Below, in pieces: positions 4,190-62,454 of a DNA stretch of 64,000 nt; position 1 is the stretch's first letter; each line of letters starts with the position of its first letter. Where the stretch lies: positions 1 through 64,000 of IMG/VR virus record IMGVR_UViG_3300030116_004830. One strand, 5' to 3'. The notes beneath the pieces were generated by a model. The model had not been told where the DNA came from and did no database searches. It was given only the letters and a program-made list of their open reading frames with translations. The translations under genes were made by a program, and so were the position numbers. Origin of the DNA: a virus.

Positions 4190-4428
4190 ATGACCACCAA
4201 GATAGTGAGAACTTTTCTTACAATAGGTCTTGGGAAGAAATAGAGAACATGCTTCATCAAGCAGAGCGTGAACAGAATGACTGTTATATGCAATTACAGA
4301 ATTGTAAGAGAAAAGACCGCATGTATTGGATGAGAAAATACAAGGGTCTTGAAGGAGTTATCAATGGACTAAGATGGGTCCTTGGTGACTTAAGAATGAA
4401 TAAAAGAAAGGTATTGGGGAGAGAATAA
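4186..4428 (+). CDS. Hypothetical coiled-coil protein, 80 aa
   Basis: This small helical protein contains WEEIENMLHQAEREQNDCYM and a basic C-terminal part (NGLRWVLGDLRMNKRK). Two ATGs four bases apart could serve as start. The spacing of aromatic and charged residues suggests a coiled coil. It lies just before the DNA ligase gene, which starts on its last base. Function is unknown. Confidence 0.55.
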   Translation: MNDHQDSENFSYNRSWEEIENMLHQAEREQNDCYMQLQNCKRKDRMYWMRKYKGLEGVINGLRWVLGDLRMNKRKVLGRE

Positions 4429-5963
4429 TGAAATGGATAGAGTTTTGCAGATTAATGCAAGCAGTAGAAAATAGAACTCCTACTAAGACAATCAGTTTGA
4501 TAGCAAAGGACTACGAACATAATTCTCAATTCATTAAGATTCTATCCCTAGAACTAGACGCTAACAATCTTGCTAGTAAGAAAGCCTTTAGGTGGGTAGT
4601 CAATGCGTTAGAAGTATTTGATGAAGAGGTTGAGTTAGCAATATACCAACATGGAGATATTGGTGAAGGAGTATATCACTTCGTCCAAGATGGTGAAGAT
4701 TCAGAAATGAATCTTAGTTCTGTCTTACACCTCTTATCTATGGATTGTAGTAAGAGTGATGGCCAATCCTACAATGCGTTTTATGTCGCATTCAATTCAA
4801 TGTCGGCATTAGAAAAGAAATGGTTTTTGAGATATTGGTTGAGGACTCCTAGAAATGGTATCAACAGTGGAACCGTTAGGAAGTTACTAGCCAAGATTTA
4901 CGGCAAGAAAGAAGCAGAAGTAAAGAAGCATAATCAGTTACACAGTTTAGAGGATATTTCTATCTTCTATGCTAGAGGTGAAGAACCTCCCAATGATTTG
5001 AAATTTGGTAGATACATAGCACCAATGTTGGCTAAGGCAGTGCCTAAAAAGAAATGGCCAAAGGAACATATTGTTGAATACAAGTATGATGGTGCTAGGT
5101 ATCAAATTCACAAAACGGGTTCTGTAGTTCTTGGAATTTCAATTATTATATTCAATCGTAAAGGTAAGATAGTAACTGATAAGTTCCCTGATATTGTAAA
5201 AGAAATTAGAAGTTGGAAATTCGATGAGTCATTTATTATTGATACAGAAATCTATCCTATTGAAAGTGACGGTAGACCTGCTCCTTTCAAGAAGATGGGA
5301 ACTCGCATTCACTCAAAGAATGTGAAGGAAGCGATTGAAAAATGCCCCGTAGAACTGGCAGTATTCGATTGTATGATGTTCAATGATGAAAACCTAATGG
5401 ATTCACCATTAAAAGATAGAATCAATACTATCGTTAAATTCCCAAAGCAAGCAGTTAGAAGCACTTTGAAAGAAGAAAACGATATATTCTACAATCTATC
5501 AATCAATGATGGTTATGAAGGTATTATGATTAAAGACCTTAATGCTACTTATCAAAGTGGTAAAAGGTCAGTTGCTTGGGCTAAATACAAACCTCCTAGG
5601 TTTGAATTAGATGTAGTAGTTACAGGAGCAAGATACGGTGATGGTAAAAGGTCTAGCGTGTTTGCATCTTATGATATTGCAGTAAAGAACGGTAACGAAT
5701 ATATATCAGTTGGAAGTATAGGAACGGGCTTTAGTGATATTGACCTATTGTATTTGACCAACGAAGGTAAAAAGATTGTATCAGGAATAGAAGGAACTAC
5801 ACACAAATGGCTTCCTAGAATAGTGTTGGAAGTCACTTGTGATTTAGTAACTAGAGATGCTAATAGTAATCTTGGATTAAGATTTCCTAGAATGCTTAGG
5901 ATAAGAACGGATAAACCTGTATCTGATATTAATACTTTAGAAGATGTGGAGGGAATGATATGA
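4428..5963 (+). CDS. ATP-dependent DNA ligase (replicative type)
   Basis: The 511-residue protein is an archaeal/eukaryotic-type ATP-dependent ligase that seals nicks, for example between Okazaki fragments. An N-terminal helical DNA-binding domain covers about residues 1-190. The adenylated lysine is Lys219 in motif I, EYKYDGAR. Motif III is IDTEIYPI, motif IV EGIMIKD and motif V WAKYKPP, followed by an OB-fold with VTGARYGDGKRSS. It is slightly shorter than cellular archaeal ligases (about 560 residues). It belongs to the replication operon and is distinct from the much larger ligase in the head module at 54676-57159. Confidence 0.93.
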   Translation: MKWIEFCRLMQAVENRTPTKTISLIAKDYEHNSQFIKILSLELDANNLASKKAFRWVVNALEVFDEEVELAIYQHGDIGEGVYHFVQDGEDSEMNLSSVLHLLSMDCSKSDGQSYNAFYVAFNSMSALEKKWFLRYWLRTPRNGINSGTVRKLLAKIYGKKEAEVKKHNQLHSLEDISIFYARGEEPPNDLKFGRYIAPMLAKAVPKKKWPKEHIVEYKYDGARYQIHKTGSVVLGISIIIFNRKGKIVTDKFPDIVKEIRSWKFDESFIIDTEIYPIESDGRPAPFKKMGTRIHSKNVKEAIEKCPVELAVFDCMMFNDENLMDSPLKDRINTIVKFPKQAVRSTLKEENDIFYNLSINDGYEGIMIKDLNATYQSGKRSVAWAKYKPPRFELDVVVTGARYGDGKRSSVFASYDIAVKNGNEYISVGSIGTGFSDIDLLYLTNEGKKIVSGIEGTTHKWLPRIVLEVTCDLVTRDANSNLGLRFPRMLRIRTDKPVSDINTLEDVEGMI

Positions 5964-12067: not shown

Positions 12068-12844
12068 ATGCAAATTCAAGTAAACAAACAAGATATAATT
12101 GAGGCCATGAAAAATGTAGAACTCAAAGGAAAATGGGCGACAACGAGTGGACTATCTTCAAAATCTTTAGGTAAATATATTCAATTTCAATTAAGAGATA
12201 ATCAATTATTGTTAATCAATTCAGATGAATCGACTACTGCAATAAAGGCTATTCCTGTAGAAACAGAAGATACTGGTTCCTTTGTTTTAGATATTGAAAT
12301 GATGAAAAAGTATCTTACTAAAATGAATGATGATATTCTATTTGAAGTTGGAGATACCATAGTAATGAAGTCAGATGGTAAGAGGGCTACTATGCCTATA
12401 GTAGTTGAACATCCTTTTCATGGTAGAATCGAAAGGTTTGTGGCTCAATGGCCAATAGCCTTTGAAGAAGATTTAACGAGAATACCTACAATTGGTAGTA
12501 TCGAGTTTAACTGTGGTATTCAATTAACCGCAGATGAACTTCATAGTGCCATTGATGCTTGTGAAATAGTAAACAATGGTATCTATAAATTAGATTTTAG
12601 AGAGGCTGATGAAGTTAGTCGGCCTAAATTTATTATATCCTCTGAACAAACAATTTCCTCTTATAGGGAAGAAGTTTCTTTTTCTAATGTTATCGGAGAA
12701 GGAGCAACGGTATTGTTTAGTGGTCCTATGCACAAGTTCTTTGGAAAGAAAGATATTGTGAATATTTTCATTGGGGATGACCAACCCATTGTAATGATAA
12801 CAGAAAATAGCGCTTTGGTTCGTGCGCCAAGAATGGGTGTTTAA
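12068..12844 (+). CDS. pcn: Sliding clamp (PCNA)
   Basis: The start at 12068 is favoured by AAGGTGAT just upstream, giving 258 residues, close to archaeal PCNA (about 245-250). Features are the N-terminal strand-helix QIQVNKQDIIEAMKNVE, a central interdomain region, and a C-terminal half with PMHKFFGKKDIVNIFIG, QPIVMITEN and the family ending RAPRMGV (compare APR-[IM] at the end of PCNA). Sequence similarity to cellular clamps is low in the middle. PCNA trimers tether polymerase, ligase and nucleases to DNA; several proteins here carry likely clamp-binding motifs. It lies immediately upstream of the polymerase. Confidence 0.8.
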   Translation: MQIQVNKQDIIEAMKNVELKGKWATTSGLSSKSLGKYIQFQLRDNQLLLINSDESTTAIKAIPVETEDTGSFVLDIEMMKKYLTKMNDDILFEVGDTIVMKSDGKRATMPIVVEHPFHGRIERFVAQWPIAFEEDLTRIPTIGSIEFNCGIQLTADELHSAIDACEIVNNGIYKLDFREADEVSRPKFIISSEQTISSYREEVSFSNVIGEGATVLFSGPMHKFFGKKDIVNIFIGDDQPIVMITENSALVRAPRMGV

Positions 12845-12845
12845 G

Positions 12846-14513
12846 ATGATAATTAGTTTTGTAGATTCAGATAAGACCATCAAGATTAGATGGAGAGATG
12901 AGAATAGAGAAAGAATGGAGAAATCAATTGAAGGCTTTAACCCTTATTTCTTTATTCGTTCTACAGATAAAAGACCTGAAACATACAAAACATCTCATAA
13001 GATTATAGGTGGTAAATCAGTTAAACAAACTGGATTCTATGAATACCAAACTGGTGATTACAAAAACCTACAAGGTCAATCTTTGACTAAGGTTTACTAT
13101 TCTAATCCTAAAGATAAATACAATGCAGTAAAACCATTTGTCGCTACATGGGAAGGAGATGTTCCTATCTGTCGTAGATATTGCGTAGATGAATTGGAGA
13201 ACGTCCCTGAATATGAGATGAGAAAATGGTATTGGGATATGGAATGGTTGCCTAAAGGCCACGAACATGAAGACGCTATTACTTGTATAGCAGTATATGA
13301 TAATTATACTAGTAAGAGTAAGTTATACACATGGTTTCCTGAACCCGAATTAGGAGAAAATAACGTCAAGTTTTCAGGATATTCGATTTACGATTCCGAA
13401 AAAGAAATGCTTGAATCATTCGTTAATGATTTACAAGAACAAGACCCTGATATGTTGATTGCTTGGTGGGGATTAAAATCAGACGTTCCACAATTGATTA
13501 AGAGAATGTTTGCTAACAAGATAGACCCAAGAAAGTTATCACCACATAAGGAAGTAAAGAATGTAGGATTCAATGCTTTAGGTAGTGTTGAGTATTCTAA
13601 CATTGAACAACCGATTCGTGGTAGGCTATGTTTGAATCTTGATTTGGCTTTTGAGAGGCAATGGATGGATGCTCAAAGAGGAACGCTACCAAGCAACTCA
13701 TTGGATTATTGTGCAAGTGTATCTGTTGGGGAAACTAAGAAGAAAGAATCTAAGTTTACTGATAGGAACGAATTTTTTAATCGAGCATGGTTAGAGGATA
13801 CTCAAAATTATCTTGAGTATTGTCTTCAAGATGCAGAGTTACTACATAAGATAGATGAAGAAATGGGATTGAGTGAAGGTGTATTGGCGGTTCAAAAAAT
13901 TGTGAAAGCACCGTTTGAAGATTGTTTCTTTGTTACCATGATTGCGGCCCCTTATTTCATGAGGAACGCCACATGGAAAGCCCCTACTGGAAAGAAAGGC
14001 GCTAAAGAGAAATACGATGGAGCAATGATTTACAATCCATTAGAAGAAGAAACAAATGGTTTACATCTAGGAGTTGCGGCTTTTGATTTTAGTTCGCTAT
14101 ATCCATCAGTTGCAGTAGCAAGAAATATCTCTTGGGAAACCAAATCCAATGAACCAACAGAGTTTGCAGTTAACATTAGAACACCTAGAAACCTAGGTGA
14201 AACTACTACTGAGGATTGGAGATATTACAAAACAGATGAACTCGGTCTACTACCAAAAATGATTCTAACTCTAAAGCCTCTTAGAAAACAATACAAGAGT
14301 AACATGTTAGAAGCATTACAAAATGGAAACAAGAAAGAATATGTTAAGTGGAACTCTATGCAAATGGCCACTAAAAGGTTACTAGCATCTCTATATGGAG
14401 CAACTGCCGCAGTAGGTTTTGGATGGTATGATTTAGATTTAGCCGCTAGTATTACTGCTAGTGCTAGAGAAGCAATTAGAGAAGCCGCATTTAAGGTGAG
14501 GGAATTAGAATGA
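12846..14513 (+). CDS. polB: DNA polymerase B, N-terminal part (exonuclease, palm motifs A and B)
   Basis: The 555-residue protein holds the proofreading exonuclease and the first half of the polymerase domain. Exo I is WDMEW (Asp131, Glu133), exo II lies in LIAWWGLKSD, exo III is YCLQD (Tyr325, Asp329). Polymerase motif A is DFSSLYPS (414-421); motif B is KRLLASLYG (510-518) with Ala for the usual Asn. The protein stops about 37 residues after motif B; motif C is in a separate gene at 14940. It begins one base after the PCNA stop. The two parts must associate to make an active enzyme. Confidence 0.93.
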   Translation: MIISFVDSDKTIKIRWRDENRERMEKSIEGFNPYFFIRSTDKRPETYKTSHKIIGGKSVKQTGFYEYQTGDYKNLQGQSLTKVYYSNPKDKYNAVKPFVATWEGDVPICRRYCVDELENVPEYEMRKWYWDMEWLPKGHEHEDAITCIAVYDNYTSKSKLYTWFPEPELGENNVKFSGYSIYDSEKEMLESFVNDLQEQDPDMLIAWWGLKSDVPQLIKRMFANKIDPRKLSPHKEVKNVGFNALGSVEYSNIEQPIRGRLCLNLDLAFERQWMDAQRGTLPSNSLDYCASVSVGETKKKESKFTDRNEFFNRAWLEDTQNYLEYCLQDAELLHKIDEEMGLSEGVLAVQKIVKAPFEDCFFVTMIAAPYFMRNATWKAPTGKKGAKEKYDGAMIYNPLEEETNGLHLGVAAFDFSSLYPSVAVARNISWETKSNEPTEFAVNIRTPRNLGETTTEDWRYYKTDELGLLPKMILTLKPLRKQYKSNMLEALQNGNKKEYVKWNSMQMATKRLLASLYGATAAVGFGWYDLDLAASITASAREAIREAAFKVRELE

Positions 14514-14827: not shown

Positions 14828-14949
14828 ATAGAATGTTCAAATGTAAACATTGCAATAAAATTGGTATGTCTGAACATTACATGAGATGTGTCCATTGTTA
14901 TGCTACAATGTCTAAGGATGAACTAAAGGAGTTGATAAAATGCAAATAG
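14824..14949 (+). CDS. Zinc-ribbon miniprotein, 41 aa
   Basis: This short gene begins with an ATGA overlap after the MazG-like gene and ends inside the polymerase C-terminal gene. The product has two cysteine pairs, FKCKHCNKIG and MRCVHCYATM, typical of a zinc ribbon. It is conserved in layout as part of the insert that separates the polymerase halves. It could bridge the polymerase fragments or bind DNA; this is speculative. Confidence 0.6.
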   Translation: MNRMFKCKHCNKIGMSEHYMRCVHCYATMSKDELKELIKCK

Positions 14950-15869
14950 TTTACGCACATACAGATTCACTATATGTTCCCGTTCCCTCTATAGAGAAGG
15001 CACTAGAAGTTAGAGAGGTATTGAATGACCACATTCAAGAAAATGTATTTCCTAATATTATGGGTTTAGAAAATCATCCTATGGATTTAGAGTTTGAAAA
15101 ATATTATTCGGTCTTAGGAGTAGGAGCCACAAAGAATAGAAATGCAGGTTTTATCTCTTGGAAAGATGGAGTGCATTTACACGAACCTGAGTTTTTCGCT
15201 ACAGGGTTTTCATTGAAGAGAATTGCTGAATCTAAGATTGCAAAGGATACTCAGAAAGAAGTCATAGAGATGTGGGTTAAACAGAAAACGGAAGATGAGA
15301 TAACAGAAAGAGTCAGAAGTATTTTTACAGATGTCCTAGAAGGCAGAGTTGAGAAATTAGACCTTGTTAAAAGAAGTAGATATAAGGACGAAAGAAAATA
15401 TCTAAAATGCAGATGTAAAAGAAAATACGATGTAGAATACGTTAGAAAGTTACTTCGTATAGTTCCTGATGCGTTATGTGAAAACGATAATTGTAACGCT
15501 AGGCTATCGGAACTTACTACATTAGAAGGTAAAAGACCTTCCTTTGGTGGAGGGTTCGCAGGAGTATTGTATTACAATGAACATGTAAAACCTCAAGATA
15601 AAATTGATGATTCCTTTTATCATATGAAATGTAAATTCAATGGTATGGTTCAACCAAATACCTTTACTAACATAAAAGGTGAATCTAAATCTGCGGGTTA
15701 TATTGCAGTAAAGAACTTAAATGAACTAGAAAATTACGAACCCGACTGGCCCTCGTTAGCCGAATCGGAAGTTCTCAAAAAAGCCAAGCCCATTTACGAT
15801 GCAATGGGTTGGGATATTAACGAAGTAAGAAAAGACAAAAAACAAAAAGAATTGGATGAGTGGTTTTAA
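14940..15869 (+). CDS. polB: DNA polymerase B, C-terminal part (motif C, thumb, PIP box)
   Basis: The 309-residue protein starts almost directly with motif C, VYAHTDSLYV; family members normally have YxDTDS, so the first Asp is His here while the second (Asp9) is kept. The rest forms the palm end and thumb, with a cysteine cluster (KCRCKRKYD and LCENDNC). The C-terminus QKELDEWF is a good PCNA-interacting box, as in cellular archaeal PolB. GGAG precedes the ATG. With the gene at 12846 it would reconstitute a polymerase of about 864 residues. Confidence 0.9.
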   Translation: MQIVYAHTDSLYVPVPSIEKALEVREVLNDHIQENVFPNIMGLENHPMDLEFEKYYSVLGVGATKNRNAGFISWKDGVHLHEPEFFATGFSLKRIAESKIAKDTQKEVIEMWVKQKTEDEITERVRSIFTDVLEGRVEKLDLVKRSRYKDERKYLKCRCKRKYDVEYVRKLLRIVPDALCENDNCNARLSELTTLEGKRPSFGGGFAGVLYYNEHVKPQDKIDDSFYHMKCKFNGMVQPNTFTNIKGESKSAGYIAVKNLNELENYEPDWPSLAESEVLKKAKPIYDAMGWDINEVRKDKKQKELDEWF

Positions 15870-51763: not shown

Positions 51764-53116
51764 TCACTTCAAGTTGGTGATTTTTCCTTGTCCCTTAAAG
51801 AAGGTGCAACCAGTTTCACCCATTGTTCTGTAAAGACCTCTGTTACCTAGGACTCCAACACCGAATGGGTTTCCATGAGAAATACCGTCCTCAAAGTATT
51901 GGGTAGGCTTCATTGTAGCAAACCATAGATGGTCAGTGTCTAGCAATAGCATGTCGGATAGACCGCTTGTTGCCGCACCTGTCTTTGGCATGTCCTTACA
52001 AGGAATTAGAGGAATATCGTAGTATGTTGCAACTCTGAATCCAACTTCTGCACCCTTTACGCCCTTTACACCGTTATGGGTTGGAATAACTTCCTTAGCG
52101 TCCATGAATCTTTCTTGGCTCTGTAGCAAGTCAGACAATGCTTGAATGGTATCGTATCCAGTTAGGATAACCTTTGGAGTTCCACCATTCAATCTTAGGT
52201 TCTGAATAACATCGTTAATGATGCTTAGAGTTAGAACACGACCCGCAGTAGCGTAAGATGCACCGTAGTTAACAACCGAATCCATGAAAGATGCGCCTGT
52301 TGCTCTTGAGGTGTTACCGTAAAGAGTTGTTACATCAGCGTCTAGGTCAGCAATAGCAGATGAAACGCTTGAAAGCCTATCAAGTTCACCACCGCTATCG
52401 GACAACTCATCGTTACTGCTAACAATCTTCAATAGAGAAGTATAGTTTTCACGAATTCTTCCGCTTGAAGTATCTGCTCCAAGTGTATCGTAGTTCTCAA
52501 GAGGCATTACTAGCATAACCGACTGAGATTCTGCGTGGAATTTACCCATATCCTCACGAATGAGTTTACGAATATCTCCAACACCATCATCAATCTTAGC
52601 CATTTCAGCCGCAAGTTCGGAGTAATCGAACATATGAGCGACAATCTTTGGGTTCATGTATAGAGTGGTGTATTCAGGAGCAAGGGCTTCCAACTGTGTG
52701 CTATCCAATGCTTCGTTTTCACCGACACCACCGAGCAAATCTCCATCAGGAGTTTCTGAACCTTGAACACCACTTCCAGTAGTTGCACCTACAGCGAATG
52801 CCGCCGCACTTCCACCTTGAGGTCTGTTAATCATAACTCTCCAGCCGCTTGAAGTGTATGGCCTCTTAGGTAGAATAGATAGTGGGTTGATTTCTTGGTT
52901 AATCATTGACCAAACTTTCTGACCGTAAACCATGTTGTAAAGTGCAGTTAGGTTTGTTGCCGCAGTTCCGTTAAGAGTTAGTGCAGTGTCGGACGAACCA
53001 GTGAATCCACTGTTGATTCCGCCAACAATACCTGCCGCCTTCAAAAGGTTGTTTCCACCTACGTTACCATAGGTTGCTCTTTCCAAATCTTGAATTGTGT
53101 TAATGTATTTCGTCAT
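51764..53116 (-). CDS. Major capsid protein (HK97-type), 450 aa
   Basis: GGAG precedes ATG 53116 by 9 nt; an earlier in-frame ATG abuts it. The order protease/scaffold then this gene, the length, and an abundant-protein codon pattern support the HK97-fold capsid protein. Segments include NPLSILPKRPYTSSGWRVMI and a central EALAPEYTTLYMNPKIVAHM; the C-terminal part YFEDGISHGNPFGVGVLGNR is compatible with the P- and A-domains. The N-terminal region may be removed by the adjacent protease. Confidence 0.8.
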   Translation of the reverse strand: MTKYINTIQDLERATYGNVGGNNLLKAAGIVGGINSGFTGSSDTALTLNGTAATNLTALYNMVYGQKVWSMINQEINPLSILPKRPYTSSGWRVMINRPQGGSAAAFAVGATTGSGVQGSETPDGDLLGGVGENEALDSTQLEALAPEYTTLYMNPKIVAHMFDYSELAAEMAKIDDGVGDIRKLIREDMGKFHAESQSVMLVMPLENYDTLGADTSSGRIRENYTSLLKIVSSNDELSDSGGELDRLSSVSSAIADLDADVTTLYGNTSRATGASFMDSVVNYGASYATAGRVLTLSIINDVIQNLRLNGGTPKVILTGYDTIQALSDLLQSQERFMDAKEVIPTHNGVKGVKGAEVGFRVATYYDIPLIPCKDMPKTGAATSGLSDMLLLDTDHLWFATMKPTQYFEDGISHGNPFGVGVLGNRGLYRTMGETGCTFFKGQGKITNLK

Positions 53117-53149
53117 TTTTTTCATCTCCTTATTGTTTCTCTAATGGGA

Positions 53150-54655
53150 TTAGAGTTGTCCCTCCAATCTTTCAACTAGAGCGTTAATGTCGCTCCAATC
53201 CATCTTTGCGATTTCGTCACCATTAGGAATGTTAAGTTCTGCAACTGCTTCTTCTTGCTTACGAATTACAGTTTCTTCTTCTGCCTTTAGATTGTTAAGA
53301 AGGTCAGCGAATTGCTTTCTCAACTCAGTTACTTCTGCCTTAGCATCGTAGTTTGCCTTCTCAATTTCCTCGGTCTTAGCAACCATTTCAGAATTGAATC
53401 TTGCTTGGAATCCTTCCTTTACTTTATCAAAAGCCATCTTCTCAAGTTGTTCTGCCTTGAATTCAGCGTAAGCCTTCTCCAAGTTTTCAGCAGATAGGTC
53501 AAGAGTAGTTTGGTCTTCAAACTTAGCCATGTATTTGCTGTCCAATTGTGGATGAGCATCATCTACATATTCACCAGCGTTTCCTGCTTCTACTTGACCA
53601 GTAGCCAAATCAGGCTTTGACTTTCTTTCGGTATCCATGTATTCTCCACCCATACCTTTTTCGTCCATCATCTCTTTATCAGGCATATTAGGATTCATTG
53701 CTTCAACATCCTCTTCTGCGTTTTCAATTTCTTCTTCTTCTTTAGCAACCATTTCTGTTCCCTCGGATGTTTTCTGATTTTTCTCTATGTTCTTATTAAC
53801 GTTTTCTGCTGAATCCGTGTTTTCCATATCTTTCATAGCATTAAATTGGTCAACCATTTGTCTTAGTTCATCCTTTTCCATAATGCCTCTACCTAATACT
53901 CTTTCATATGGAGCCATCTCTACTTTACCAGTAGTGTTTTCCATATCTTCTTTCATAGCGTCAATTACATCTTTCTTCTTGTAATCCCCGCTAGTCAATA
54001 CTTCAAGGTATTGCATTTTTACTACGCTTTCATTATTGTATGCGGAATTTGCCGCATCCAACGTCTTGTTCAGTTCTTCTAGTGCTTTGCTTATTGCATT
54101 CATTTTATCACCTTTATCCATTTTTAGTATATCGAATTTTGCTTCAGGGTTAATACCCTTTTCACAAATCGTTACTTCATGGAGTTCTAATTTGGAGATT
54201 TCATTGTATTCTCCGTATTCTTTGTGGGTCTTCTTTCTCTTTTCTAAGGCTTGACCCCCAATACTAAATGAGCGTAGAGAACCATCTCTGATTTCTCTAC
54301 CAACCTCTTTTGCCTTTTCAATATCTTCTCTCATCTTAATGACGACAAAGAATCCAACATCGTCTACTTCTGTCTTGTAGAGTTTACCTGTCTTATCTCT
54401 GTAACTAGGAATAACTTCTCCTACTTGAACATTAGAATGATTAGTCATTACGTTTCTAAACTTCGTAATTTTCATGTATTTGTTTACTGCTTCTTGTAGT
54501 GCATCAAGAGTAATAAGGTCGTTTTGCTTATCTACCATTTCAATAGAAGCATAACCTCCAATGACTAAGTTATTGGATTTAAGGATGGTAAAGGGGTCAT
54601 TTCTAATAGCGTTGATAGAAGTGACCGCACTACCCATGCGTGATACTTTTTTCAC
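53150..54655 (-). CDS. Prohead protease (XkdF-like) fused to scaffold, 501 aa
   Basis: Residues about 30-170 match the XkdF/prohead-protease type: VIGGYASIEMVDKQNDLI, the catalytic His in TNHSNVQVGEV and Ser in GSLRSFSIGG, followed by ELHEVTICEKGINPEA. The remaining 330 residues are acidic, Met- and coiled-coil-rich, as expected for a scaffold. The C-terminus AKMDWSDINALVERLEG resembles that of the protein at 57734 and the N-termini of several small proteins upstream. The GTG start has a weak ribosome site; an ATG six codons later is possible. Confidence 0.82.
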   Translation of the reverse strand: MKKVSRMGSAVTSINAIRNDPFTILKSNNLVIGGYASIEMVDKQNDLITLDALQEAVNKYMKITKFRNVMTNHSNVQVGEVIPSYRDKTGKLYKTEVDDVGFFVVIKMREDIEKAKEVGREIRDGSLRSFSIGGQALEKRKKTHKEYGEYNEISKLELHEVTICEKGINPEAKFDILKMDKGDKMNAISKALEELNKTLDAANSAYNNESVVKMQYLEVLTSGDYKKKDVIDAMKEDMENTTGKVEMAPYERVLGRGIMEKDELRQMVDQFNAMKDMENTDSAENVNKNIEKNQKTSEGTEMVAKEEEEIENAEEDVEAMNPNMPDKEMMDEKGMGGEYMDTERKSKPDLATGQVEAGNAGEYVDDAHPQLDSKYMAKFEDQTTLDLSAENLEKAYAEFKAEQLEKMAFDKVKEGFQARFNSEMVAKTEEIEKANYDAKAEVTELRKQFADLLNNLKAEEETVIRKQEEAVAELNIPNGDEIAKMDWSDINALVERLEGQL

Positions 54656-54675: not shown

Positions 54676-57159
54676 CTAGAATTTTAATTTAGAATCCTTA
54701 TCTTCTCTAATATCCCATAGTCCGTCATCAGTTTCAGGGTCCACAGGTTTCTGTTCTATTCCAGTCCAAGCAAGCCACTTATCTTCGCCCTTTATCGGTA
54801 TAACTCTAACATGAAATTTAGTATCGAATTTATTTCCAGTTAAAATGTATTCATGATAACCATGACGCTGAACCCCTAACTCTACTTTTCCTGAATCTAT
54901 GAGTTTACCCGTTTCTATTTTCGTTACAACTTGTGCAGGGTATTTGCCTGATTTACCGAATAGAGTAAAGATGTCGTCTTCGTTTTCTATCTCTATATCC
55001 CAACCAATAGTTTCGTCTGATAATTTGAATAAGATAGAAAGATGACCGTTATCTTTGTAGTAGATTTTGAAATCACCATTACGGTATTCATCAGGGGTTT
55101 TATATTTTGATTTTAAAATGTCCTTTTCTAAAATATCAGGTTCAGCAAAAAATAATTTCTCTTCTTCATTGTAACCAATGTCTTCTAGATTCTTTAGATA
55201 ATTCTTCAATCTTGTAGGTTTACTATCAAAGATATTGTTGTAAGGGGTTTTCTGTTTCTCATTAACGAACTGTTCTATCTTAGAAAACGGAGATTCGCCA
55301 TTCTCTAAAAGATAATTTCTTATTGATACTCTAAATGCTCCCTTTTCTCTTTTAATCAGTTCTTCTATTTCTGTTTTCCAAACGTCAATATCAAGTAATG
55401 CATTCTTAGCCATTATATTATTTTCTTCAAAACCATAGAAAGTAAACCCATCTAAATCAGATTTAATGATAGCAGTAGCATCACCATGAATAGTATCGCT
55501 TATACGAAATCCTTTCTCTAATGCTTCTATATCATAATTAAGAGATTTCTTAGTATCTTGAGATAATAGGTCTAAAGTGATTAATTTTTCAGGAAGTTCA
55601 ACTTCGGGTATTTCTATTACTTTAGCCGAAAAGAGCGTGTATCCCTTTTCGTTTTTCTTTACTTCATCTATCTTTACACGAATAATACTTCCAACTTCAA
55701 CATCTATTTTTGTATTTAACGCCTTACCAACATTAAGATATTCTCTATCGTTAATTGTCTTAGTGTCCGAATAATTATCTTTATCTGTTAATGGTCCTGC
55801 CCCTAAAGTATAGGTAAACATATTTGATTTAGTGGTTTTCTTATCTAAAACCATCATATCTAAATCTACAAACTTTTTCCATTTAATCCATTTAGGGTTT
55901 TTCTTAGTTCCTATAAAGTAAGTGGAAGTTACATCTTTTATTACTACCCCTTCAGCAGTAGGAATCTCCATAATTTCTTTTGCATATTCTTCCACTTCTT
56001 TCACAGAATCAGCATAACGAGTATCCTTCTTAGAAGGGAACGCTAACTTTTCATGGGAATGTGTAGAATAATTATTGAATAGAATAGTCATTCTTTCTAT
56101 GAGTTCTTTCTCATGTAACTCCTCACTTTCATGTCGCATTATGTCGAACACATGCGCTCTTAATTCTGTATCAGATTTTTTGTCCTTAAAAATTCTAGCA
56201 ACTACCTCTGCTCGGTGTAGGGCTTCCTTACCTTTGAATAATAGAAGTTCAGCATCGAGGATACAATCTCCAAAATGCTTGGCTTTCATCACCTTAACTT
56301 GTTCAGGACATTTCTTGGTAATGTCCTTACCGTTGAAAGAAAATATCTTGATTTGATTATCTATCTTATGAATTTGAATTCTCATTCCATCATACTTTTC
56401 TTGGACTACCCATTTACCAGTAAATCCTCTTAACTGTTCTAAGTCATCAATATCGAATATACGATACATCGGTTTGTTAGGAACCAAGAAATGTTCTTCC
56501 GCCTTCATCGCCTTTTCTAGGCTAACCGTCTTATCCCAATTTTTACGGCTATGATGGTTCACAAATATTTCTTCTAACAATTTCTTAGCGCCTAAATATT
56601 TACCTTTGATTCTTTTTGTGTCTTTATCGTCACCATAATGTTCGACCACAAAATCTAGAATATCCTTTTCAGCAAGGTTTAGTCCCTTGAATCCCTCTGT
56701 AATACTATCGGGTTCCAAATCATTCTTTTCCCATGCCTCATCACTAAGGGCTTTATCGTGGTTTCTCATAGCCCAGTGAATAAATTTAGCAAATAGAGAT
56801 TCGTTTTCTATTAGTTCATCTAATACATCTTCACCATATTTAGTAGAGAATGGGTCCTTTACAATACCCGATGAATATCTCAATTCTTTAACTTGAGAAT
56901 ATATTTTTCTAGCATCATCACTTTCTACGTTTTCTGCCTCATCAGAGAACAGTTCCTTTTCATTAATTATTTCTTTAATCTCTTTACTGAACTCATCAAT
57001 GTCGTCCCATTGTTCTCTAAGTGTTTTAATTTCGCCTATCCATTTATCGCCGTATCTTTTCTTATCTGATAAAGCAGACAAGTAAGACATTCTCATTTTT
57101 TCAAAGAATTGAATTACTCTAAGGGTTAGAGGGTCATCTTTGATAACGGAAACAGGCAC
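54676..57159 (-). CDS. Large ATP-dependent DNA ligase in head module, 827 aa
   Basis: The nucleotidyltransferase core is complete: motif I EKYDGMR with Lys255, motif III DAELLLF, motif IV EGVVIKD, motif V WIKWKK, followed by an OB-fold (GSIIRVKIDEVKK). It has about 240 residues before the core and about 260 unassigned residues after it. The N-terminal KDDPLTLRVIQFF resembles RNDPFTILK in the prohead protease and NDPFIMLK at 59287. A GTG start follows GGTGAT. Its place between small head genes and the protease suggests that it acts on packaged or injected DNA and not in replication. Confidence 0.85.
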   Translation of the reverse strand: MPVSVIKDDPLTLRVIQFFEKMRMSYLSALSDKKRYGDKWIGEIKTLREQWDDIDEFSKEIKEIINEKELFSDEAENVESDDARKIYSQVKELRYSSGIVKDPFSTKYGEDVLDELIENESLFAKFIHWAMRNHDKALSDEAWEKNDLEPDSITEGFKGLNLAEKDILDFVVEHYGDDKDTKRIKGKYLGAKKLLEEIFVNHHSRKNWDKTVSLEKAMKAEEHFLVPNKPMYRIFDIDDLEQLRGFTGKWVVQEKYDGMRIQIHKIDNQIKIFSFNGKDITKKCPEQVKVMKAKHFGDCILDAELLLFKGKEALHRAEVVARIFKDKKSDTELRAHVFDIMRHESEELHEKELIERMTILFNNYSTHSHEKLAFPSKKDTRYADSVKEVEEYAKEIMEIPTAEGVVIKDVTSTYFIGTKKNPKWIKWKKFVDLDMMVLDKKTTKSNMFTYTLGAGPLTDKDNYSDTKTINDREYLNVGKALNTKIDVEVGSIIRVKIDEVKKNEKGYTLFSAKVIEIPEVELPEKLITLDLLSQDTKKSLNYDIEALEKGFRISDTIHGDATAIIKSDLDGFTFYGFEENNIMAKNALLDIDVWKTEIEELIKREKGAFRVSIRNYLLENGESPFSKIEQFVNEKQKTPYNNIFDSKPTRLKNYLKNLEDIGYNEEEKLFFAEPDILEKDILKSKYKTPDEYRNGDFKIYYKDNGHLSILFKLSDETIGWDIEIENEDDIFTLFGKSGKYPAQVVTKIETGKLIDSGKVELGVQRHGYHEYILTGNKFDTKFHVRVIPIKGEDKWLAWTGIEQKPVDPETDDGLWDIREDKDSKLKF

Positions 57160-57169
57160 ACAGAATCAC

Positions 57170-57355
57170 CTACTTCTTTTTGTTAGCCCCTGCGTAATGC
57201 CTTTTACCAGCCTTTACGCTTTGGCCTTTAGCCTCATCAGAAAGATGACCTACTCCCAAGGGCTTAGTTTTATCCTTTTCACCTTTGGTTCTCTTGAGTT
57301 TCATTTCTTCGCCAATGACGAATTTCATTAGTTTTTCAGTGTATTCAGTGGTCAT
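57170..57355 (-). CDS. Small basic protein, 61 aa
   Basis: GGAGGG precedes the ATG, which overlaps the upstream stop. The product is Lys/Gly-rich (KLKRTKGEKDKTKPLGVGHL and a KAGKRHYAGANKKK ending), compatible with a DNA-binding internal head protein. It is not recognised. Confidence 0.5.
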   Translation of the reverse strand: MTTEYTEKLMKFVIGEEMKLKRTKGEKDKTKPLGVGHLSDEAKGQSVKAGKRHYAGANKKK

Positions 57356-57732
57356 TTTGGTCCCTCCTTTATTGCTATTGCTTCAATTCCGTCAAAACTT
57401 GTATTTCTAATAGTCCAGCCTTCAGCACGATATATATCGGAAATTATTTGAAGAATGTATGACCTATTCCGACCGAGTTTATCTTGCCCGTCTTGTCCCA
57501 TAAGATAAAATGGAGAATTGTTATTGGACAATCCCGTTTTATCTGCTGGTTCATTTCTAAAACCAATATATGTTTCTTTTCCTTCTAGCGCTGGTTGCGC
57601 TTGAACCAACGCTACTAATTTAGGTTCAATTACTGATTTCTCATACTCAGTAATCGCTTGTTTATGGTCTTCATCTCTAGCGGTCCTAGTGCCTAGGGGC
57701 ATAGGCATTTTCAAAATATCTTTCCAATTCAT
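57352..57732 (-). CDS. Trp-motif head-region protein, 126 aa
   Basis: The protein starts MNWKDILKM, one of five proteins in this block opening with M-[NST]-W-[KE]-D-[IVM]-[LI]. The rest contains GFRNEPADKTGLSNNNSPFY and a C-terminal alpha/beta part (SYILQIISDIYRAEGWTIRN). GGAGAG precedes the ATG. Body function is unknown; see the finding on the shared motif. Confidence 0.55.
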   Translation of the reverse strand: MNWKDILKMPMPLGTRTARDEDHKQAITEYEKSVIEPKLVALVQAQPALEGKETYIGFRNEPADKTGLSNNNSPFYLMGQDGQDKLGRNRSYILQIISDIYRAEGWTIRNTSFDGIEAIAIKEGPK

Positions 57733-57733
57733 T

Positions 57734-57970
57734 TTACTCTCCTCCTAATCTTGCTACTAAGTCATTAATTTCATCCCAACTCATCTTAGCAATTGTATCT
57801 GAATCAGGAACATCACTATGAGTTCTGATTGCAGGAGTTGGCGAGTCCACAGTAACAATACCCGACTTAACTAAGATATTATCATTGTTATAAACTGTAT
57901 TTTCTATTTTCTTAATTCTACCTACTAATTCCTTTAGCAGGTCTACCATTTCATTATTCTCTTCCGTCAT
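57734..57970 (-). CDS. Head-region protein with C-terminal Trp motif, 78 aa
   Basis: An N-terminal coiled coil (MVDLLKELVGRIKKIENTVY) and a linker precede a C-terminus TIAKMSWDEINDLVARLGGE. The last 18 residues closely match the C-terminus of the prohead protease/scaffold (EIAKMDWSDINALVERLEG). This suggests a shared docking site, perhaps on capsid protein or scaffold. Its stop and start overlap its neighbours. Confidence 0.6.
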   Translation of the reverse strand: MTEENNEMVDLLKELVGRIKKIENTVYNNDNILVKSGIVTVDSPTPAIRTHSDVPDSDTIAKMSWDEINDLVARLGGE

Positions 57971-58311
57971 TATTCATCATCCCTTAAACTTCTAGCGCTC
58001 TTTGGATATACTACTTTTCTTACTTGGCGATACAACTGTTCGTATTGCTTACGAAGTTTGCTGGCAGTAGCGACCATATCAACATTCTGTTCACTGATGG
58101 ACTTTACTTTCTTTTGTAGTTTAGAGTCATCCTTCACCAAATCTAGTTCACTCATCATATCAATGAGTTCTCCTAACTTGGTAAAATCCTGACCAAAATA
58201 CTCTGTAGGTTCAGCCGCTTGGAGTGTCTTTTTGAGTTTCTTTTTCTTCTTAGAATCAAGAGCATTGAGGATTTTGCTTTCCTCTTTGATTAGCATATCT
58301 TCCCAAGTCAT
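57970..58311 (-). CDS. Trp-motif head-region protein, 113 aa
   Basis: Starts MTWEDMLIKEE, then a Lys-rich helix (LDSKKKKKLKKTLQAAEP) and a C-terminal coiled coil rich in Arg and Lys. The basic helical body suits DNA binding inside the head, but this is inference. It is one of the family sharing the N-terminal Trp motif. Confidence 0.55.
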   Translation of the reverse strand: MTWEDMLIKEESKILNALDSKKKKKLKKTLQAAEPTEYFGQDFTKLGELIDMMSELDLVKDDSKLQKKVKSISEQNVDMVATASKLRKQYEQLYRQVRKVVYPKSARSLRDDE

Positions 58312-58312
58312 A

Positions 58313-58963
58313 TTAATCCCTATATCCTAATGACCTTGCATTTGCGGCAAATCTATGACCCGCCATTTCTCCTCTAAACTCCCTTTGTTCTTCTTCGGAC
58401 ATATCGCCCCAATCTTCTTCATATTGAGCATATTCCTTGAAGGCCTTCAAAATAGCCTGAACAAAATCTCTTACGCCCTGTCTACTATTATCCCATCCTT
58501 TGAGGTCAATCTTAACATCAATTTTCTTTTTGCCTCCTTGGGTAGCCAACTCAATATCATGTATCTTGAAACTATTAATAGCGAGTCGACCATAATCAGG
58601 ATTTCTTGGATTATAGTATAAATCATAATTATCGGGCAAATACCTGATAGTCATTTTATCTGAACCAAAACCTTGACGATAAGCATAAGGTTCATCCATA
58701 TCGGTAATAATTAATTCGTGGCCAAAGGTTTCTTGTCCATAAGAGCCGTCATAATCTTCCATTTCTTCATCAGACAAAGTAGTAAATTCTCGATATTTCA
58801 TTTTCTTCTTATCTTTTTCAGTCATCCAAGACATATTCTCATAGTGGTCGCTATATTTAATCTCAAAACCTAATGCCTCTAAACTACTAATTACTTGGTC
58901 GCCAAATTCACTAATCTTCATATTGCTTAAATTGTCGTATTTCAAAATATCTTTCCAACTCAT
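58313..58963 (-). CDS. Trp-motif head-region protein, 216 aa
   Basis: The start at 58963 follows GAGGTG by 6 nt, giving MSWKDILKYDN; the longer frame lacks a ribosome site. The body is an alpha/beta domain (FGHELIITDMDEPYAYRQGF, KKIDVKIDLKGWDNSRQG) ending in a Glu/Arg-rich helix. It is not recognised. Confidence 0.55.
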   Translation of the reverse strand: MSWKDILKYDNLSNMKISEFGDQVISSLEALGFEIKYSDHYENMSWMTEKDKKKMKYREFTTLSDEEMEDYDGSYGQETFGHELIITDMDEPYAYRQGFGSDKMTIRYLPDNYDLYYNPRNPDYGRLAINSFKIHDIELATQGGKKKIDVKIDLKGWDNSRQGVRDFVQAILKAFKEYAQYEEDWGDMSEEEQREFRGEMAGHRFAANARSLGYRD

Positions 58964-58964
58964 T

Positions 58965-59285
58965 TTAAGCACCTCTATATCTATAATCATAACTGTAATT
59001 ATCCGACTCTTTATCTGATTGAACTCTTCTTAAATTCTTTTTAGATAAGAAAAACCATGAAGATGCATTCATATTTCCATCCATATTTCCTTCATCTATC
59101 CCTAATGGTTTAGCAATTTCTCTTGCTATTTTCCAACTTGTTCTAGGTAAAACAAAATCTACTTTCTCTTCAGGATATTGTTCCCGATACTTTTCAGAAA
59201 CAACTTTCACACCATTTTTTGATTTTTTCCATGCTTCACGAATAGCATCATAATCGTTACTTTTTAGTATATCTTCCCAAGTCAT
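58965..59285 (-). CDS. Trp-motif head-region protein, 106 aa
   Basis: Starts MTWEDILKSNDYDAIREAW after GGAG. The middle is basic, and the C-terminus is Tyr/Arg/Asp-rich (SDKESDNYSYDYRYRGA). No domain is recognised. Its start region is nearly identical at DNA level to that of the 58313-58963 gene, suggesting duplication of a short leader. Confidence 0.55.
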   Translation of the reverse strand: MTWEDILKSNDYDAIREAWKKSKNGVKVVSEKYREQYPEEKVDFVLPRTSWKIAREIAKPLGIDEGNMDGNMNASSWFFLSKKNLRRVQSDKESDNYSYDYRYRGA

Positions 59286-60602: not shown

Positions 60603-60803
60603 TCACCTATTTGCTATTTTTTCCATCATATCTATTAATTCGCCTTCTAATTCAGGGGCAGAATAATGTCTTTCTAACAATTTATTCATAGCCATCATTT
60701 TCAATTTCTCATATTTAGGTAAATGCATCAATTCAGAATCTAATTCACCAACATAATCAAATTTCTCTTTCTTTATTACATCTTCCCAATTCATATCATC
60801 CAA
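60603..60803 (-). CDS. Trp-motif head-region protein, about 63-66 aa
   Basis: Two starts are possible; the one at 60794 gives MNWEDVIKKEKFDYVGEL, in register with the family motif, and an ATG nine bases earlier is closer to GGAGAG. The body is a single helical region. It overlaps the portal gene and is the first of the Trp-motif genes in transcription order. Confidence 0.55.
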   Translation of the reverse strand: MDDMNWEDVIKKEKFDYVGELDSELMHLPKYEKLKMMAMNKLLERHYSAPELEGELIDMMEKIANR

Positions 60804-62454
60804 CTCTCCTTTCAGTCCTTCTATCTACGTTATTGTTAGCCGCTTCCTTGGGTAAGCCTGTAGCCCGATTAGGTGGCCCTACACTCATCTTAGGTTTAGG
60901 ACTTGCGCCTTTTACCTTAGCAGGTTGCCCTGCTTGTTCCATTGTTGGTTTAGTTCCAGCCTCCATCATTTGACCTAATTGTGATTGGTCAATATCTGTT
61001 CCCGCATAAGGGTCAGATTCAAACTTTTCATCTTCTGATTGTCCTTCTCCTTCTGCTTCGGGTTGGGGTTCAGGTTTCTTGTAAATGAACTTACCATTTT
61101 CATCCATATCAACTTCAAATCCTAAATTTTTAATTTGACCAGCAATATTAACTTCAATTTCTCTTTTTCTCATTTTAGCAATTTCATCCTCTTCTTCGGA
61201 AGGTGGTAGAATTATATCCCAGTCAGTAATACCGAACTGCTTAATCACAAACGGGAACACATATTTGTTCCATACATTTTGAGCCATTTCTACAGCCCTA
61301 TTGGTAACAAGTATTTGCATACCTTCATTGTTTAATCCACCACTGGTAGAATTATCCGCCATGAAGATTTTACTTACACCATAGAAAGCGGCGACTCTAT
61401 CTCTCAAATCTTCCTTAACAGAAATATAATCCATTTCCTTTAGAGAATCCATGAACTTAACCCATTCAACAGAACCTCTACCGTTTTCTGCTTCTATTCC
61501 CATTACAGGAATAAAGTGAGCATCCTGTTCCATCTTTTCTTTAACGCCTCTCCAAAAGGTCTTCATCGAATCTATGTTTCTTGTTTGAACAGCCAGTAAA
61601 CCTCTAGGCATTCTAGCCTTTGTATATGCTTGATTAATATAATTCTCCATAGCAATTAATGTAGTTAGATGATTAAACATTGTAATGACTGGACTAGTTC
61701 CATAGAGCCTACTTGGTTTATATTTGCTAAAGTGTAAAACCTCTCCTTTAATGAAATTCTGAGCCTCCCCATGTCCTCTGTTTACATAATGAACAGGATA
61801 CAAATCTCCTCCACATTCCCCACATTTCTCATGAGGATTATCTGCCATTACATGTCTATGGTGTAAACAAGTAAACGATGAAGCCCCTTTGTTACCATCA
61901 TCATCACAAGTAATAGCCATAGTAACTGGGTCGCCACGATACATTTCTTTGATTCTATGCGCTCTAATATTTCCATTACCATCAATGAAATATTCCTTGA
62001 CTAGAACTAAGTAAGCATCATCCATAATATTGAGGTCATCTTCTAATTCCTTTAGAACATCAATAAACATCTGTTCCGATTGATTAACATAACTACTGCC
62101 CATGAATTTATTAGCATACAATTTTTGTTTCATATCAGGTTTTCTTAAATTAGTAGAACCGCAATTTGCACATTCATTAGTTGTCTCTTCGTGTTCATGT
62201 CCACAATCATTACACTTTACTGCAAATCTAGGACTCCACTCATAGCCTCTTCTAAAAATTTCATTCTTTAATTGAGTAATACAAGTCCTAAGAATAACTG
62301 AACTATCAGCAATATGATAGATGATAGGTCCAGTCATCTGCAAAGGATGATGTCTTTCTTGTATCCCCATTTGGTAAACTTCTCTATCAGCAGGAACAGG
62401 AGTTGTTCTCCTAAAGAAATTAGTAATAGAAAATCTTCTTTTTTCTTCTACCAT
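60796..62454 (-). CDS. Portal protein with zinc ribbons, 552 aa
   Basis: Position directly after the terminase-linked gene, length, and sequences such as YHIADSSVILRTCITQLKNE, GEVLHFSKYKPSRLYGTSPV and FYGVSKIFMADNSTSGG identify the portal. Unusually, two cysteine sites are embedded: CNDCGHEHEETTNECANCG (Cys81, 84, 95, 98) and a second around CLHHRH ... CGECGG near residue 200. The C-terminal 90 residues are a Pro/Gln/Glu-rich tail. Portals form the dodecameric DNA gate and bind the terminase. Confidence 0.85.
   Translation of the reverse strand: MVEEKRRFSITNFFRRTTPVPADREVYQMGIQERHHPLQMTGPIIYHIADSSVILRTCITQLKNEIFRRGYEWSPRFAVKCNDCGHEHEETTNECANCGSTNLRKPDMKQKLYANKFMGSSYVNQSEQMFIDVLKELEDDLNIMDDAYLVLVKEYFIDGNGNIRAHRIKEMYRGDPVTMAITCDDDGNKGASSFTCLHHRHVMADNPHEKCGECGGDLYPVHYVNRGHGEAQNFIKGEVLHFSKYKPSRLYGTSPVITMFNHLTTLIAMENYINQAYTKARMPRGLLAVQTRNIDSMKTFWRGVKEKMEQDAHFIPVMGIEAENGRGSVEWVKFMDSLKEMDYISVKEDLRDRVAAFYGVSKIFMADNSTSGGLNNEGMQILVTNRAVEMAQNVWNKYVFPFVIKQFGITDWDIILPPSEEEDEIAKMRKREIEVNIAGQIKNLGFEVDMDENGKFIYKKPEPQPEAEGEGQSEDEKFESDPYAGTDIDQSQLGQMMEAGTKPTMEQAGQPAKVKGASPKPKMSVGPPNRATGLPKEAANNNVDRRTERRVG

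Follow-up and report, generated by a model that had tools for sequence, protein, structure and literature searches.

A second, 827-residue DNA ligase encoded among the head genes of a magrovirus-like virus

Why should a virus that already encodes a replicative DNA ligase keep a second and much larger one among the genes of its capsid? The question is raised by positions 54676-57159 of the window analysed here, a stretch of 64,000 nucleotides corresponding to positions 1 to 64,000 of IMG/VR record IMGVR_UViG_3300030116_004830. An earlier note, made from the DNA letters, had seen in this segment a second ligase beside the one starting at 4428. The observation holds, as the 87,650-bp record has exactly two matches to PF01068, one in the 827-residue head-module protein and one in a 511-residue ligase. 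The genes needed for the argument are the following:

4428-5963, plus strand: canonical replicative-type ATP-dependent DNA ligase, 511 residues (PF04675, PF01068 and PF04679)
51764-53125, minus strand: major capsid protein, SU10 type (PF17236, 5e-8; phrog_24667, 9.4e-24)
53150-54655, minus strand: prohead protease, S78/XkdF-like, directly downstream of the ligase (PF04586, 7.3e-10; phrog_23555, 1.1e-12)
54676-57159, minus strand: head-module ATP-dependent DNA ligase, 827 residues, GTG start
57734-57970, minus strand: u78, a conserved 78-residue protein, nearest conserved gene upstream of the ligase in nearly all relatives
57970-58311, minus strand: u113, a conserved small protein found across relatives
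60796-62454, minus strand: portal protein (PF04860; phrog_18178, 9.1e-65)

The virus and its two ligases

The window encodes a Cpn60 chaperonin, RFC-like clamp loader (RFC/AAA) genes, PolB, an ERCC4 nuclease and the two ligases. In the adjoining stretch there are two further ORFs, one like a terminase large subunit and one that resembles HMG-CoA lyase by inspection of its sequence. PolB is split in the window over two ORFs (12822-14513 and 14940-15869, plus strand) with a small ORF between them; it is apparently split also in genomes G010 and G025, and is a single ORF of 808 to 886 codons in G018, G019 and G024. Magroviruses are reported among the most abundant viruses of the ocean and, to our knowledge, have no cultured host. 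The ICTV description of Aoguangviridae includes a GroEL-type chaperonin and hydroxymethylglutaryl-CoA lyase (PMC10768690). All the magrovirus traits compared with PMC10768690 and PMC10160649 are found here: a size of about 90 kb, PolB, RFC, ligase, ERCC4, chaperonin, an HMG-CoA-lyase-like ORF and an HK97-type head module. This agreement with the descriptions of Aoguangviridae (PMC10768690) and of magroviruses (PMC10160649) leads us to call the virus magrovirus-like; by gene content, and not by a tree, it looks like a member of Magrovirales nearest to Aoguangviridae. The nearest annotated relatives of its portal are those of Druskaviridae haloviruses, with 25-27% identity, and of methanogen-type archaeal viruses. 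The consulted sections of three articles on this same kind of virus (PMC10768690, PMC10160649, PMC12999244) place one ligase in the replication set and mention none in the head module.

Both ligases are present in 18 of 20 near-genome-length records of 72-97 kb. In all ten records of the first set (72-97 kb) a ligase of about 510 residues is accompanied by another of about 830, and eight of the ten in the second set (86-97 kb) carry the pair. The remaining two, G018 and G024, code for PolB and have the head ligase only. The ends of G018 overlap by 98 bp, so that this genome is probably complete; those of G024 are without overlap. A search of both for an NAD-dependent ligase as a substitute found none. 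Since these two records carry it alone among the 20, the head ligase is the more constant of the two enzymes. Comparison of the window with relative L003 gives a dN of 0.034 and a dS of 0.836 for the head ligase, and comparison with G001 gives 0.046 and 0.609 for the replicative one. The dN/dS of the head ligase, about 0.04, indicates strong purifying selection, and from these rates we conclude that it is a real, functional gene.

The 827-residue protein has no match in PHROGs, 18 of 46 of its relatives match phrog_114 (DNA ligase), and tblastn against 50,697 phage records returns nothing. A library of viral structures gave a single match to the C-terminal half, an unnamed protein of 827 residues and 92% identity, so the gene is already in public databases without a described role. 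In bacterial and archaeal species genomes the head ligase was found in only four contigs, all from one metagenome-assembled genome labelled Maricaulis (IN14). These NZMJ01 contigs (L110-L113) are probably viral and misbinned into the bacterial genome.

A fixed place in the head module

The portal gene and several small ORFs lie upstream of the head ligase, and the protease and capsid protein genes downstream, all on the minus strand. This agrees with the earlier reading of a gene situated between portal-proximal genes and protease and oriented with the late genes. The order u113, u78, ligase, protease, capsid protein is kept in 80 ligase-anchored loci wherever the DNA extends far enough, and the head-module position is maintained even in divergent clades whose ligases are 684-917 residues long and 40-50% identical. 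A search anchored on the portal is less biased than one anchored on the ligase itself; from it the best 80 of 454 candidates were taken and 78 further loci examined. The ligase is present in 54 of these 78 loci, and in the remaining 24 the sequence stops short of the protease. Every locus that extends to the ligase position thus carries the gene (54/54), and no protease without a head ligase was found among the portal-anchored loci from the best 80 of 454 candidates. Neither the ligase-anchored nor the portal-anchored loci include a relative with the head-ligase gene in the replication block, a location that the earlier note had regarded as contrary to its proposal, and the gene stays in the head module across relatives in both kinds of set. 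Because its position is fixed and it is retained where no replicative ligase is found, the head ligase belongs to the core of the head module and is kept irrespective of the replicative one.

A few loci depart from the usual layout. Loci L202 (9653-12222) and L203 (9827-14160), of one clade, have 2.6-4.3 kb of additional DNA between ligase and protease. In several clades (L191-L213, L214-L289) u113 is fused into ORFs of 400 to 1060 codons, possibly joining small tagged proteins into one polyprotein. Contig L278 has 184,733 bases, about twice the usual genome size; it may be a concatemer, or else a duplication introduced by the assembly.

Ten small late ORFs on the minus strand, between 57352 and 67650 of the source record, start with M-x-W-x-x-[ILVM]-[ILV]-K, where residue shuffles expect 0.05:

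57352-57732, 58313-58990, 58965-59285 and 60603-60803, minus strand: ORFs in the window with the shared N-terminal tag
65879-66166, 66169-66387, 66378-66686, 66689-66877, 66874-67224 and 67225-67650, minus strand: ORFs with the same tag beyond the window, in the same record

The tag has the appearance of a signal for targeting to the capsid or docking to the core, similar in principle to the capsid targeting sequence of T4. The protease (53150-54655) and u78 (57734-57970) share a C-terminal motif, [AKS]KM[DS]W.[DE]I.., which is kept by 64 of 80 relatives of the protease and by 51 of 74 relatives of u78. This motif is similar to the tag at the N terminus of the small late proteins, and may represent a shared docking signal.

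A ligase core combined with further domains

PF01068 matches residues 244-428 of the head ligase with an E value of 1.7e-27, over the Pfam cut-off, and its profile matches in the PDB fall in the nucleotidyltransferase (NTase) domain. Considered as a possible paralogue of the replicative enzyme, the head ligase aligns with it in a profile comparison over the NTase and OB domains only, with 28% identity. An AlphaFold2 (AF2) model of the full-length protein (mean pLDDT 79) and a separate model of residues 522-827 (mean pLDDT 84) led to the following assignments:

56506-57159, minus strand: N-terminal all-helical domain, residues 1-218 (AF2 model)
55870-56505, minus strand: NTase domain with motifs I, III, IV and V, residues about 219-430 (PF01068, PDB profile matches, structure match, invariant residues)
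55585-55869, minus strand: OB-fold domain, residues about 431-525 (structure match to archaeal and human ligases reaching residue 534-542)
55141-55356, minus strand: winged-helix-like domain, residues 602-673 (C-terminal model)
54754-55080, minus strand: beta domain like the LigD 3'-phosphoesterase (PE), residues 694-802 (Foldseek, VIA-align)

The earlier note had described long unassigned flanks. This description still applies to the N-terminal helical domain, whereas the part that follows the NTase domain resolves into an OB domain, a winged helix and a PE fold. In the full-length model, residues 219-542 (NTase plus OB) align with archaeal and human ligases with Z of about 20, and the alignment to 2cfm and others extends through the OB domain to residues 534-542. 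Pfam finds no PF04675 in the head ligase; Foldseek alignments are nevertheless long, and VIA-align leaves the N-terminal domain unaligned, with no alignment to the ligase DNA-binding domain. The stretch before position 227 varies by clade between 87 and 314 residues among relatives.

Motifs I (EKYDGMR, with K255), III (FDI), IV (EGVVIK) and V (KWIKWKK) are kept in the window ligase, as had been noticed at first sight. Their key residues, K255, D257, G258, R260, F338, D339, E403, G404, K408, K426 and K428, are the same in all 134 relatives, including those with identities as low as 40%. Adenylation-dead relatives were looked for among these 134 and none was found; the invariance of the NTase residues implies that the head ligase is not adenylation-dead there. 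Column counts over relatives of the motif VI region show a variable position 522 followed by invariant P523, [D/E]524 and K525. Where the replicative ligases of these viruses have R-x-D-K, their motif VI reading RFPR..RIR.DK among relatives, a hand-drawn alignment places x-P-[D/E]-K in the head ligases. Motif VI appears to be partly retained, with its Arg lost in all relatives, and for want of this Arg self-adenylation of the head ligase could be weak, or weaker than usual.

The earlier note had singled out residues 570-827 for structure prediction, and the model of residues 522-827 shows there the winged helix (602-673) and the PE-like domain (694-802). The winged-helix-like domain gives Z 9.3 to 1ldd_A and Z 7.3 to IclR-type regulators. 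Foldseek with the C-terminal model ranks LigD PE structures in all places from 1 to 7, six of them at probability 1.00, and VIA-align superimposes the PE-like domain on the archaeal PE 3p43 with Z 10.7 over 103 residues at 2.6 A, well above the unrelated structures in that comparison. By these matches the C-terminal part of the head ligase has a ligase-linked PE fold. The fold is detected by structure comparison only: with the C-terminal half as query, profile searches of PDB sequences and Pfam yielded nothing beyond chance matches, and PF13298 (PE) has no match in the protein. The catalytic residues of the PE in Pseudomonas aeruginosa LigD are His42, His48 and Asp50 (PMC8656161). A conserved HxxxxxHxD was sought at residues 690-720 of 13 divergent members and none was found; all 133 relatives have H769, E770, H783 and R785. 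Given that the aligned region has no conserved counterpart of His42, His48 and Asp50, phosphoesterase chemistry has probably been lost or changed in this predicted domain.

The head ligase thus shares its NTase and OB core and motifs I-V with archaeal and eukaryotic replicative ligases such as those of Pyrococcus furiosus (2cfm) and human LIG1. It differs from their PF04675-PF01068-PF04679 organisation by the absence of PF04675 and PF04679 matches and by the apparently lost motif VI Arg, and adds to it a winged helix, a PE-like domain and the location of a late head-module gene. With LigD and the stand-alone archaeal PE (3n9b, 3p43, 5dmp) it has in common a LigD-PE-fold domain associated with a ligase core; unlike LigD, it shows no motif of the H42/H48/D50 type, no polymerase domain and no PF13298 match, and no viral Ku was found. 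The combination of ligase, winged helix and PE fold was not found in the solved structures searched. What is new is the domain setting of a genuine ligase core, together with its unusual place in the genome.

Possible roles of the head-module ligase

The retention of the gene at one place of the capsid block, independently of the replicative ligase, speaks for a task connected with head assembly, packaging or ejection. A ligase conserved in this position suggests an action on viral DNA entering or leaving the particle. Gene order alone is no proof of protein location. Gp30 of phage T4 is a replication ligase and not a second, capsid-block copy. According to PMC10893049, which cites Zachary & Black 1981, T4 needs DNA ligase for encapsidation and ligase deficiency lowers the number of DNA-full heads, and by this precedent nick sealing at packaging is the most economical proposal. 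We tentatively privilege a head- or packaging-associated ligase that adenylates itself, seals nicks and may stay in the particle, a reading that we hold at slightly below an even chance. The NTase and OB core would self-adenylate and seal the nicks, and the winged helix and PE-like domain, the latter probably deprived of its chemistry, would hold the enzyme on DNA or DNA ends. The clade-variable N-terminal helical domain may, by conjecture, dock it to the prohead or the packaging machinery. Made together with the capsid proteins, the ligase would associate with the head or packaging complex, seal nicks in the genome during packaging and possibly remain in the virion. The tag-like motif of the neighbouring late proteins was sought in the head ligase and found in 0 of 81, which would count against its association with head or packaging.

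The main rival, which we regard as unlikely, is a virion cargo: the ligase would be packaged, probably already charged as ligase-AMP, and would leave the particle together with the DNA, in order to seal the entering genome or close it into a circle. Its gene lies among small late proteins apparently tagged for the head, a tag that the ligase itself does not share. In related haloviruses, too, the region from portal to capsid protein codes for enzymes, with ADP-ribosyltransferase and zeta-toxin kinase domains, and targeted internal and ejected proteins are present in T4 (PMC7697877). Omega and Corndog are phages with a Ku gene that employ the LigD of their host to infect successfully, the title of the work in question (Pitcher 2006, as cited in PMC7719229) speaking of NHEJ-mediated genome circularisation. 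Against this parallel, Ku (PF02735) is absent from the 11 viral records searched (0/11), a host Ku being possible, and the ligase has no functional-looking PE that would serve circularisation. The ends overlap by 98-357 bp in 14 of 17 long contigs tested, so these genomes map as circles. Such overlaps are compatible with both permuted and cohesive ends; they suggest genomes with circular maps or terminal redundancy and do not demonstrate a cohesive end. As the contigs close on themselves, no need for cohesive-end joining is shown. By analogy with T4, repair at packaging would be at least as good an account as circularisation after injection, both of which the earlier note had put forward.

It is rather improbable that the protein acts in solution as a second, late ligase for the general repair of replication or recombination intermediates, with a head location that would be no more than a transcriptional convenience. 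The ligase core is complete, and G018 and G024 could rely on it in place of the replicative enzyme; however, in the loci examined the gene was never found away from the capsid genes, where genes placed for timing only are expected to shuffle, and its elaborate extra domains are conserved. The protein might also be a former ligase turned structural or scaffolding component, which would still bind DNA but could do without catalysis. This would fit the apparently lost motif VI Arg and the absence of a visible PE motif, but is very improbable, as the invariant NTase motifs described above are hard to explain without catalysis.

Returning to the sealing of nicks in the head or at packaging, a capsid-block ligase that is fixed even where no replicative one is found points to an obligatory DNA-sealing step at packaging or entry. 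How nicked viral DNA is packaged, and the fate of genome ends on entry, become directly testable with one recombinant protein. A broader and doubtful extension is that abundant archaeal tailed viruses carry an in-capsid ligase delivered with the genome, whose PE domain would have been converted from 3'-end cleaning to docking on DNA ends or capsid by means of a new His/Arg site.

The head modules of Druskaviridae (HVTV-1, HCTV-5) have a related portal and enzymes adjoining it; in contrast to the present module, no ligase is annotated in them, and ADP-ribosyltransferase and zeta-toxin domains are found instead. It may be that archaeal tailed viruses more widely have enzyme cargo close to the portal. 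In HVTV-1 (locus L114, 15084-19022) and in locus L115, both with a related portal, the head module codes for zeta-toxin kinase and ADP-ribosyltransferase domains.
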